The notes under the pieces were generated by a model. It did not search any database, had not been told where the DNA came from, and saw nothing but the letters and a program-made list of their open reading frames with translations. This document shows, piece after piece, positions 49,631 to 53,921 of a stretch of 64,000 nt of DNA (position 1 is the stretch's first letter; each line of letters opens with the position of its first letter). The stretch comes from Spiroplasma phoeniceum (GTDB taxonomy: Bacteria; Bacillota_I; Bacilli_A; Mycoplasmatales; Mycoplasmataceae): NCBI GenBank assembly GCA_026239495.1, contig CP110830.1:372001-436000 (forward strand), read 5' to 3'. Position numbers and translations under genes: made by a program.

Positions 49631-49783
49631 CTAACATATAATATTATTCGGCAAGTTTTTTTGTATTTTGTTAACTCAATTTTTTTTCATTTTTTTAAAT
49701 TTAATACCAAGAAACTTTAATAAACAACCAAACAAACCAATTACAGCAATTGTTACCATCATTCCTATTATTGTGTTTAACAT
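49631..49783 (-). CDS. 50-residue membrane protein
   Basis: MLNTIIGMMVTIAVIGLFGC followed by LLKFLGIKFKKMKKNWVNKI and QKNLPNNIIC. One hydrophobic helix (residues about 3-23) with a basic cytoplasmic tail containing a UGA-coded Trp. A good ribosome site, GGAAGTG, lies 8 bases before the ATG. Size and layout resemble small inovirus/plectrovirus virion or membrane proteins, but this is only a resemblance. It is the last gene of the minus-strand cluster that runs up to 53734. Confidence 0.55.
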
Positions 49784-49851
49784 AATTTACACTTCCTTTC
49801 TTTTTTATTTCTTATTTGTGGTAAATAACTTGTAAAGTATTCTTTTCAAAA

Positions 49852-50759
49852 TTATCATATTTTTGTTTGTACAGTTTGTTTTGTTAATAACCAATATGCA
49901 AGTCCCTCCGCCAATAACCGGTCATCATCACTCAATGAATAATTACTGTTAGCAAATATCTTTAACACTTTTTCTTTGTCTAGTTCTGCAAACTTATTTA
50001 AGTTATTAATTTTCTGTCCTAAAAATTGCTTTAAATAAAAAATATGATTAATTTTAAATGTTTCTCAATCATAAAAATAAAAGATATGTCCTAATTCATG
50101 GATTAAAATATGCATAAATTTATTGGTTGTAAATTGTCTTTTGTGTCATTCACTATTTATTGTTTTTTCAAACGCACAAGATAAAACATTTTTGTTTAGC
50201 AAAATAGTTTGGTGATTATTTGTTTGTCCTAAGATATTATTATCACCATCAATGATATTTTTAATTTCTATTTTTTGTAAAATTTCATTAATATTTGTTT
50301 TATTTTAAATATTAGCAACAAAATTATAAAACAATAAAATAATTTGCTTTAAATTATTTTGGTATTGTTGACAAATATTATTCAATAAATTTTGTCAATA
50401 ATTTTGTTATTCTATTTTTAAATAATGTTGTAGTTGTTGATAAGTACTAAATTCTGTTTTAAATTTAATTTCTAAATTAATATCTGCTTTACTTAAAAAG
50501 CATCTGTTAAATTTTTGATTGCATTTGTTTTATATTGATTAAATAAAGCTCCTTTATATCCTCGCTTTTGAATTAAAACAGGGTGGGGCAAGTACATTTT
50601 TTCTAAATTAATATTTGTTTCTAAATTTACTTTTAAAACATTTACTAAATTATTAGTTAAATTTGTTTTGTTATTTGCAATATTTTCACAACTAATCAAA
50701 TTCACTGTGTTTTTACATAAAAACGAAAATATCGCTAAAAAAATAAGTAATTTTTTCAT
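49852..50759 (-). pseudogene. HELGH metallopeptidase-like lipoprotein, broken
   Basis: The N-terminus MKKLLIFLAIFSFLCKNTVN then LISC is a lipoprotein signal with lipobox. The frame shifts in a T-run near 50497, then reads SKADINLEIKFKTEFSTYQQ, two TAA codons, and a C-terminal part with KFMHILIHELGHIFYFYDWE. LLAEGLAYWLLTKQ follows about 70 residues later. HExxH plus a downstream Glu (AEG) is the zinc-ligand pattern of gluzincin metallopeptidases. The ancestor was probably a surface-anchored zinc protease. At least one frameshift and two stops make it inactive now. Confidence 0.6.
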
Positions 50760-50882: not shown

Positions 50883-51710
50883 CTAAGGGAATAATTTTTT
50901 ATTATTTTTTATCTTTATTTTTTTAATAAAAATATAAATATAAAATAATGTAATTGTTAATAATATAGCTATTATAATAAAACAAATTCAATTTGTTTTT
51001 CTTTTTAAATATTTTTTTTCTTCTAATGATAATATATCTGTTCCTCAATAACATATTATTTGTGTTTTAGTTTTTTTAAAGTGAATAAAACAAAAACAAT
51101 GCAAAACAAAAAATAATAATATTAATGAACTAGTTATTATTATTTCTGTTTGTAAATTTTTTATTGTTCCTATTTTTCAAAAACCTAAATAAAAAATATT
51201 TTCATTATTAATATACTGATATTGTAATCATATTAATATAGACAATGCAATTACACCAACTATATAAGAAAAAATGCAAAATCAATCAGCAATAATTTTA
51301 CATACAATACTTTTTTTATATACACTATATATAAATTCCGGAATAGTATTTTCATCATTTTTTAATCATAATTTATATTTTTTTTCTTGTTTTTTTATCA
51401 TTGTTAAATTAAAACAACCATATATAAATATAATAAAAAAAATTATTAATAAAAAAATTAATAAAAATGGATAGGGAATTAATTCTATTTCTAAAGATTT
51501 AACAATCTTATCAAAGATAAAATTAATATTTGTATCTAATTTAAAAATTTTGTTTTTATAATCAATATTATAATATAAAAATAATATAAAAGATAAAAGT
51601 AAAAGTAAAAATAAAGAAAATAATATTTGAAAAAAAGAAAATACTTTAATAAAAGTAATTTTATTTTTAATAAATCTAGGAATTGTTTTTTTATTTTCAA
51701 AATAACTCAT
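50883..51710 (-). CDS. Multi-pass membrane protein, unknown
   Basis: 275 residues with no premature stop. Starts MSYFENKKTIPRFIKNKITF. Hydrophobic helices lie near residues 20-48 (ILFSLFLLLLLSFILFLYY), 78-104 (FLLIFLLIIFFIIFIYGCF), 139-163 (WFCIFSYIVGVIALSILIWL), 188-213 (IIITSSLILLFFVLHCFCFI) and 242-265 (WICFIIIAILLTITLFYIYI). Short charged loops contain UGA-coded Trp. I do not recognise a transporter or secretion family. It is one of the few genes of this cluster that stayed intact. Confidence 0.65.
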
Positions 51711-51727
51711 TTATTAATTTAACTCCT

Positions 51728-51967
51728 TTACTTTTTATACTTTTTCTTATTTTCTTGTTGTCTAATACTACCATTAATACAAACTTGACATTTTTTTAAT
51801 AAACAAACTTGACAAGAAATACATTTTAAACAACTTTTACACCCTTGAAAAGAACCTATACAAACACGACAAGTATAACAATTATGAGCTCCGCCAGGAC
51901 AACAAATTTCTAACATATTTTTTTTTCCTTTACATTTAATTACTTTTACTAATTTCTTCGTTTTCAT
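51728..51967 (-). CDS. Cysteine-rich small protein (13 Cys)
   Basis: 79 residues starting MKTKKLVKVIKCKGKKN, then LEICCPGGAHNCYTCRVC, IGSFQGCKSCLKCISCQVC and LLKKCQVCING, and ending with a Lys-rich tail. Thirteen cysteines, many as CxxC, fit metal clusters or zinc knuckles more than disulfides, as there is no signal peptide. An upstream TTG is a possible alternative start. It overlaps the end of the S1-domain gene by 31 bp and precedes the membrane protein by 17 bp, so the three were probably one operon. No family recognised; intact. Confidence 0.6.
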   Translation of the reverse strand: MKTKKLVKVIKCKGKKNMLEICCPGGAHNCYTCRVCIGSFQGCKSCLKCISCQVCLLKKCQVCINGSIRQQENKKKYKK

Positions 51968-52897
51968 TTGTCTTACCAATATTTTTAATATTTTCTGTTT
52001 TATTTTTTTTATTTAATTTTTTAAAAGCTGCTTTTATCTGTTGAATTTCATTATCATAAGTTTTTAATAACTCAGGATGACACTTTTTATAACTTAATTT
52101 AAGATGTTTTCTAATTTGATTAAAATCAAGTACTTTAACTTCAATTTCATAATTAATATTAAAAAAATCTCTGATATCTATAACAAAGCAATCTTAAACT
52201 TCAATAATATGGATTAAACCATCAGCTCTTTCTGTTCTACAAAAAGCACCATAAGGAGTGATATTTGTTATTTTTACAATAACTTTATTTCCTTTTTCAT
52301 ATGTAAATTTTCATTTTCAATGGTTAACTCAGGTTTTTCTTCTTGTTGCTTTTGCATTTCTTTTGCTTTCAACGATTTCAATTCTCTTTTTAATTCATTA
52401 ATTTTTACTTGTTTTTCAGGAATATTTTTTTCACAATTTTTAATAATTTTTTTAGTAAGACGATCTGGTTTTTGTTCTGATTTACATTTTTAAAACATTT
52501 TTATATCATCTTCTAATTATTTTTCTCGGATTTGAATGCGATATTTGAGAAATGGAATTGCACCGCTTTTGTATGCGCCATATCATTCTAACGCTTGATC
52601 TCAATCTTTTTTATTTTCTAAACTGTGTTTTCGTTTTAATCGTTGTTGAGGATCAAGATATGATTTTGATAAAAATGTATATCTATTTAAATCAGGAACT
52701 TGGCGACCAAACTTTTCTAACACTCACGTGACATTATTTTTGTCATCATCATTTAATCTATCAATCTTTAAAGTTGATACCCCCCCCCGAGTGGCATGAA
52801 TAATTGCACCGTGAATTTCAGTTGCAAGACCTCTGTCATTTATTCTAGCAACGCGTTCTCAGTTGACTTCACCACCTAATAATCGTCATAATCCCAT
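51936..52897 (-). pseudogene. S1-domain RNA-binding protein with novel N-terminus
   Basis: Starts MGLWRLLGGEVNWERVARIN behind GGAG, then RGLATEIHGAIIHATRGGVS, LEKFGRQVPDLNRYTFLSKS and a helical Lys/Glu-rich part with two TAA codons. After a frameshift near 52325 an S1 domain follows: YEKGNKVIVKITNITPYGAF, RADGLIHIIEV (TAA, Ser expected), FNINYEIEVKVLDFNQI, RKHLKLSYK. S1 domains bind single-stranded RNA. A run of nine C at 52780-52788 lies in frame. The N-terminal 130 residues are unrecognised. At least three stops and one frameshift make it inactive. Confidence 0.55.
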
Positions 52898-53182: not shown

Positions 53183-53225
53183 CAGATATTTCCTTATGAT
53201 TAAATAGTTTTTTATTAATTCTTGT

Positions 53226-53734
53226 TTATTTTTTATTTAAATTTTTAACAGAAACTTTTTTGTTATGTTTCAAATCGCTTTTTGTTGTTGGTTTAATATA
53301 TGAAAAAATATTTTTTATAGTAAATTTGTTTTCTACTTTAAATAGTTTTTTGTTTAAATATTTTTCTTTTATATCACCATAATCTTTTATTTTTAACTTA
53401 TTATTTTTATTACCACTATTTGCAAGCTGTGGATTAAATCTTTTACCAATTGCTTTGAATGGTGTTGCAATCCCAGTTCCAAATTGACGGAAAAATCCTT
53501 TTGCCCAACCTCCTCAAGCTGCTCCCACTAGTTTACTTGTTGCAATCGTTGTGACCCCAAGCCCAAATCCTGCTAAACCAACAATTCCAGCTCTTGAACT
53601 CATTCCCTCAAGAACACCAGCTGCTTCACCAATTAAGTTGGCAACAACATCTGAAAACGCCATCACTGCCAATCCTCCACCACACATCATCAGAATTACA
53701 AACAATGATTTTCCAATTCCATCAATGCCAATTA
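53226..53734 (-). pseudogene. Glycine-rich membrane protein, 5' truncated
   Basis: Begins at the junction with an IS3 remnant: IGIDGIGKSLFVILMMCGGG, LAVMAFSDVVANLIGEAAGV, GIVGLAGFGLGVTTIATSKL, then AWGGWAKGFFRQFGTGIATP and a basic tail ending NLNKK. Long hydrophobic glycine/alanine-rich helices followed by a basic tail are seen in conjugation membrane proteins such as VirB6/TrbL and in some phage proteins, but I cannot assign it. The stop at 53226 may itself be premature, because the frame goes on for 35 more codons into the MITE region. Confidence 0.5.
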
Positions 53735-53921
53735 AAGAAAAATTTAAAGTTTTATTTACTGATGTAGCTTATTTAATTTTAAATGGTAAAAAACATTATC
53801 AATCAACAATACTTGATGGATATACTAAAGAAATTGTTGATGTGCAGTGATCAAAAAATAATGATAACAAAATTGTTATTAACACTTTTTTATTAATACT
53901 TACTAAACTGGGTACAGTCTA
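53735..53921 (+). pseudogene. IS3-type (third kind) transposase fragment
   Basis: FTDVAYLILNGKKHYQSTIL, GYTKEIVDVQWSKNNDNKI, the first catalytic Asp region of an OrfB, then an abrupt join to the element's right end (TACTTACTAAACTGGGTACA). The remaining catalytic part is at 56761-57124 on the minus strand. Confidence 0.75.

Follow-up and report, generated by a model that had tools for sequence, protein, structure and literature searches.

The main finding of this work is that the Cys-rich gene found in a 64,000-nucleotide stretch of the S. phoeniceum genome (the window; genome G000, 2.18 Mb, translated by code 4) is, as judged from gene order, alignments and trees, a plasmid-borne extra copy of a strongly conserved chromosomal family. 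Its neighbours, read in the same way, are the decayed, IS-riddled remains, now in the chromosome, of an ICE-type T4SS operon from a Spiroplasma conjugative plasmid; what is new is the Cys-rich protein itself and not the cluster as a system. We put at about 55% the probability of the whole account that we favour, in which this operon remnant would carry an extra copy of a chromosomal family whose product acts as a small cytoplasmic metal-thiolate carrier or buffer.

The open frame at 51728-51967 (minus strand, code 4) encodes 79 residues with 13 Cys, and the first-pass annotation, made from the sequence alone, described the protein in this form. The frame does exist, but translation very probably begins with the ATG at 51916 and not with that at 51967, since a Shine-Dalgarno sequence lies directly upstream of it, the relatives start near the same place, and the 17 extra codons run into the end of the S1 gene in a frame that is lost in the S. 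citri copy (Table 1). This 17-aa N-terminal extension holds the thirteenth Cys, and in the alignment its frame is unconserved in loci L033, L072 and L069; the overlap with the S1 gene that had been pointed out is present in the 79-aa frame but falls within the probably spurious part. Cys makes up 0.64% of the residues of ORFs of at least 150 aa in the window and related loci, and against this background 12 Cys per 62 aa lie far beyond chance (p ~1e-14); no other of the window's 362 open frames with 50 codons or more is as dense in Cys. Conservation across genomes, as seen in the alignments, excludes chance more strongly than this density does. As had been proposed, no signal peptide is apparent in the protein, and an enzyme domain is absent. 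No structured RNA or tRNA was found in the window.

Table 1. Features of the operon remnant, in window positions (L033, locus of S. citri R8; L067 and L072, other Spiroplasma loci).
Feature	Positions	Strand	Remarks
50-aa single-pass membrane ORF, same operon	49631..49783	-	Open; 75-86% identical pieces in L033, L067 and L072
Lipoprotein with HELGH motif (zinc-peptidase-like)	49780..50759	-	Split in the window: pieces 49852-50202 and 50493-50759
MSC_0882-family multi-pass (five-helix) membrane protein	50883..51710	-	275 aa, whole; NCBIfam NF045846, 105.8 bits (cut-off 60)
Cys-rich protein gene, start corrected (very probable)	51728..51916	-	62 aa, 12 Cys, frame whole: MLEICCPGGAHNCYTCRVCIGSFQGCKSCLKCISCQVCLLKKCQVCINGSIRQQENKKKYKK
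N-terminal extension of the 79-aa ORF, probably spurious	51917..51967	-	Contains the 3' end of the S1 gene and the Shine-Dalgarno sequence of the Cys gene
S1-domain gene remnant	51957..52301	-	One in-frame stop; 79-80% identity to the whole 117-aa S1 protein of L033
Remnant of the operon gene upstream of S1	52286..52897	-	Opens at 52897, passes a 9-C run (52780-52788), then cut short
Truncated Mbov_0396-family ICE transmembrane (VirB6-like) gene	53196..53750	-	62-64% identity to parts of L033 10576-12243

The window was compared with S. citri R8-A2 (G015), S. poulsonii MSRO_BK (G021), other Spiroplasma genomes and the S. citri plasmids pSciBLHMB-2 (CP047439) and CP047440. A common gene string emerged, which runs dcm, Mbov_0396 membrane protein, an unnamed gene with a poly-G tract, S1 protein, the Cys gene where present, MSC_0882, lipoprotein, 50-aa membrane protein, Mbov_0399, VirB4, relaxase and VirD4. 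The first-pass annotation had suggested an undescribed accessory element, half decayed, with the Cys-rich and multi-pass proteins preserved, and had advised a search for the same gene set on Spiroplasma plasmids. The set was indeed found on pSciBLHMB-2 and CP047440, and the decay is as described, with a stop in the S1 gene, a split lipoprotein and whole Cys and MSC_0882 ORFs. The element is thus accessory and half decayed, but its gene set is recognisable as a conjugation operon, an outcome that the first-pass annotation had itself named as one that would refute its proposal: the fuller relatives match the NCBIfam families Mbov_0396 (E=1e-81), Mbov_0397/VirB4 (VirB4_plasma, E=2e-276) and Mbov_0399 (E=2e-55). 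On pSciBLHMB-2, VirB4, VirD4, a VirB6-like protein and a relaxase lie in one operon, the composition of an ICE-type T4SS (T4SS-DNA_transf, E=1e-16; Mob_Pre relaxase, E=6e-13, over the Pfam cut-off, with a MobV match under the NCBIfam cut-off).

The window shares its gene order with the operons of pSciBLHMB-2 and CP047440, with ~90% DNA identity across three quarters of the remnant. Unlike them, it is chromosomal and keeps the middle part of the operon alone; relatives of VirB4, VirD4 and relaxase are all absent from the remnant, which does not amount to a functional T4SS set. Conversely, pSciBLHMB-2 has kept the T4SS genes, whereas its Cys gene is reduced to a 21-aa deletion remnant. On both sides the window remnant is flanked by ORFs that we take to be transposase-like. 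Among the genes that survive, the five-helix membrane gene next to the Cys gene, correctly recognised at first reading, is a member of the MSC_0882 family and is likewise present in L072, L069 and L173. The truncated Mbov_0396-family gene corresponds to a region of S. citri R8 (L033 10576-12243) that matches NF045889 (E=4e-78), and the S1 relative in L072 matches the Pfam S1 domain (E=2.7e-15). The metallopeptidase lipoprotein and the 50-residue membrane protein said to follow were both located, the former split and with family matches below threshold only, although whole relatives occur on S. citri plasmids. No PHROGs family names the proteins of the cluster. A phage origin was rejected, as the Cys protein had no match in phages and viral contigs and the Mbov_0396 protein none in phages; a terminase-like ORF (L033 17345-18001; phrog_3717, E=7e-4) is located ~8 kb away from the Cys gene that the S. 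citri R8 element carries. A defence system was likewise rejected, with no match in PADLOC.

The gene upstream of S1 carries a poly-G tract of 6-9 G (coding strand) at a fixed site near codon 37, which was compared between the window (52780-52788), L033, L065, L066, L067, L069 and L072. Tract length determines whether the ORF is read through: it is open at 9 G (window) and 8 G (L066, L067) and closed at 7 G (L065, L069, L072) and 6 G (L033). L065 (7 G) and L066 (8 G) are elements of one genome (G024), otherwise 99.9% identical, that differ at the tract. The tract looks like a phase-variable switch within the conjugation operon, homopolymer sequencing error being possible.

In pSciBLHMB-2 and in S. 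poulsonii, the two ends of the Cys gene are fused in frame between S1 and MSC_0882, with the 41-codon Cys core deleted and 21 aa left, which indicates that the gene is an old operon member; from this arrangement we read it as an old cargo or accessory gene lying between S1 and MSC_0882. Plasmid-type copies are still complete in the window, at L033 of S. citri R8, and in G505, which shares the taxonomic order of these two but not their GTDB family. In G505 the gene order S1-Cys-MSC_0882 is the same, S1 and its upstream gene are broken, and Cys and MSC_0882 are open. Between the window and S. citri copies (95% identity), 4 changes are nonsynonymous and 7 synonymous, and the plasmid copy is under purifying selection in this comparison (binomial p=0.001 against neutrality). 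The signal is weaker for G505 (omega 0.37-0.44), whose copy lacks one of the Cys that are invariant elsewhere, so the constraint is not uniform. In a tree of 64 columns, the plasmid copies group with the chromosomal copies of the g8 lineage (support 92/92); a grouping with the citri clade is not rejected by the AU test on the same 64 columns (p=0.17), and other placements are possible. The plasmid copies carry a C-terminal tail that is absent from the chromosomal copies of the citri clade.

Two other explanations were weighed. In the first, the Cys and five-helix proteins would act jointly in an undescribed accessory system, for defence or transfer, as the open state of both ORFs in two decayed remnants (window and G505) and the nearly whole five-helix ORF of S. 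poulsonii could suggest. We consider it very improbable, since the element of S. citri R8 has the Cys gene and no five-helix gene there, MSC_0882 genes occur without the Cys gene and chromosomal Cys genes without MSC_0882, neither protein fits a PADLOC model, and the constraint on the five-helix ORF between the remnants is not strong (omega ~0.43). In the second, the protein would be a structural zinc adaptor, a multi-zinc module that binds protein or nucleic acid and, together with the plasmid S1 protein, regulates translation or operon expression. Its position beside an S1 RNA-binding gene of CvfD/GSP13 type and the conserved basic C-terminal tail of the long forms agree with such a role; nevertheless, S1 remains whole in L072 and L069 despite the loss of the Cys core, and no S1 gene was recognised beside the chromosomal copies, and we regard the adaptor as unlikely.

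The Cys-rich protein had been seen as part of the accessory element, and it does lie in the operon, but it is not peculiar to it, chromosomal copies being found across Spiroplasma. Of the 60 genomes of the GTDB family, 37 gave a match in a profile search; about 35 are counted, the match in G058 being marginal (E=0.007) and the gene in G024 broken. Beyond this GTDB family, class-wide and phylum-wide samples of ~390 genomes apiece yielded only the plasmid-type copy of G505, and a pattern scan of 85,000 genomes, from which records close to the window's genome may have been withheld, returned Spiroplasma records only. No family match beyond chance level was obtained in Pfam (32 members searched), NCBIfam (14 members searched), PHROGs, PADLOC or PDB sequences, and the literature search returned no description of such a protein. 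We take the Cys-rich protein for a real, conserved and apparently undescribed Spiroplasma-clade family.

Across the alignment the invariant positions, in window numbering, are C5, C6, H11, C13, C16, R17, C19, C26, S28, C32, I33, C35, C38 and C43, that is, ten Cys and one His among them, while C29 and C45 are conserved in at least 90%. The family core can be written CC-P-x3-H-[NDE]-C-x2-CRxC ... C-x-S ... CI-x-C-x2-C, and the window copy holds all the invariant positions. Conservation extends to residues other than Cys, as in PGGAHNCYTCRVCSGSFHGC and SARQQENKAKY.

Chromosomal copies are found in two main settings. In the citri clade (g1) the gene lies directly downstream of ispG, whose identity is confirmed by PF04551, and adjoins a dual-specificity phosphatase gene and nfo. 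In the g8, g4, g5 and g6 lineages it adjoins genes that we take to be plsX-rnc(-smc) or fakA, and a few species have other neighbours. The g8 chromosomal gene has a promoter of its own: 16 of 20 species of this lineage show a TATAAT sequence 28-39 bases ahead of its start, whereas 22 of 89 background ORFs have one within 65 bases. The host of the window also has a chromosomal copy, ~6 kb from ispG, with 44% identity and altered residues at positions that are conserved elsewhere in the family. A record of 123 kb from S. citri (NZ_CP047429, pSciBLH13-1), labelled as a plasmid, contains fib, nfo, greA and the dual-specificity phosphatase gene, chromosomal elsewhere, as well as an unannotated chromosomal-type Cys gene, and it may represent either a piece of chromosome carried by a plasmid or an error of assembly.

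As to function, the protein is most likely a putative cytoplasmic thiolate protein that binds metal or Fe-S, a reading that follows from the invariant Cys and His, the lack of an apparent signal peptide and the absence of an enzyme domain. In the account that we favour, the ten invariant Cys, the near-invariant Cys and the invariant His would bind Zn2+ or Fe/Fe-S, and the protein would carry or buffer metal or clusters in the cytoplasm and would not be part of the transfer machine, with the plasmid copy providing the host with a second, mobile dose of it. The AlphaFold model, which is small and helical, has middling confidence (pLDDT 79, pTM 0.59; 68 and 0.47 for a second member); Foldseek found no fold match for it in PDB or BFVD, and a sequence profile search of PDB returned chance-level matches only. 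The repeated CxxC spacing recalls 4Fe-4S ferredoxins, but their signature CxxCxxCxxxCP is absent from the alignment and there is no family or fold match. Bacterial metallothioneins resemble the protein in being small, very rich in Cys and without a visible signal peptide. A metallothionein-like buffer would sequester excess Zn, Cu or Cd, and with its plasmid copy the bacterium would tolerate metal better inside its insect or plant host; ~20% Cys, the richness in CxxC, the missing enzyme domain and the extra copy on a plasmid all fit. We see this as possible, though on balance somewhat unlikely, given that the strong conservation of non-Cys residues, as in PGGAHNCYTCRVCSGSFHGC and SARQQENKAKY, is unusual for a plain buffer, that none of the directly adjacent genes was recognised as a metal regulator or transporter, that the chromosomal copies adjoin housekeeping genes and have their own promoter, and that the protein, unlike bacterial metallothioneins, matches nothing in Pfam or NCBIfam. 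A precursor of a ribosomally made, modified peptide (SCIFF/ranthipeptide-like) would equally be short, Cys-dense and conserved; however, no maturase (radical SAM) gene was recognised among the neighbours of any copy and no RiPP family of Pfam or NCBIfam was matched, which makes it extremely improbable.

A more specific, and weaker, part of the carrier proposal is that the housekeeping client might be the Fe-S arm of isoprenoid synthesis, IspG and IspH. Among the 60 genomes IspG is found in 39, IspH in 38 and SufU in all, and the distribution of the Cys gene loosely tracks IspG/IspH and not SufU; since SufU is universal, we rejected the idea of a general link to Fe-S assembly. In favour of this client are the position of the Cys gene next to ispG in the citri clade, its presence in 34 of the 38 ispH-positive genomes, and its frameshift in G024, the only citri-clade genome without ispH. 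It appears frameshifted in G025 as well, at a poly-A run, maybe by assembly error. Flavodoxin (PF00258) was detected in 1 of the 60 genomes, and the ferredoxin signature CxxCxxCxxxCP gave six scattered, mostly chance-like matches in the same set. In the strongest form of the proposal, the protein would be a so far unrecognised carrier of Fe-S or donor of electrons for IspG and IspH, taking the place of a flavodoxin or ferredoxin apparently missing from these genomes, and conjugative plasmids would have captured and spread it. We hold this form to be quite improbable, because the Cys gene is missing from G020 and from three genomes of g9 that possess both IspG and IspH, the g8 gene lies beside plsX and away from ispG, and the RpoB tree yields only three independent pairs, too few for the sign test to reach significance. 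In S. citri R8-A2 (L034 8775-10058), ispG and the Cys gene are read as one 427-aa ORF; a functional fusion was set aside, since the joining hinges on a single base of a poly-A run and a Shine-Dalgarno sequence is retained ahead of the Cys gene.

We infer the function of the Cys-rich protein from its sequence and genomic settings, and its candidate helper role for IspG/IspH is testable but unproven. For Spiroplasma, a genus that lives in symbiosis with insects and plants, this work delimits a gene family that is conserved and apparently unannotated, and it shows a copy on a conjugative element in three or more genomes from two GTDB families. How IspG and IspH work in spiroplasmas becomes a concrete question, given that PF00258 flavodoxin is almost absent and that the classical ferredoxin signature has few, mostly chance-like matches.
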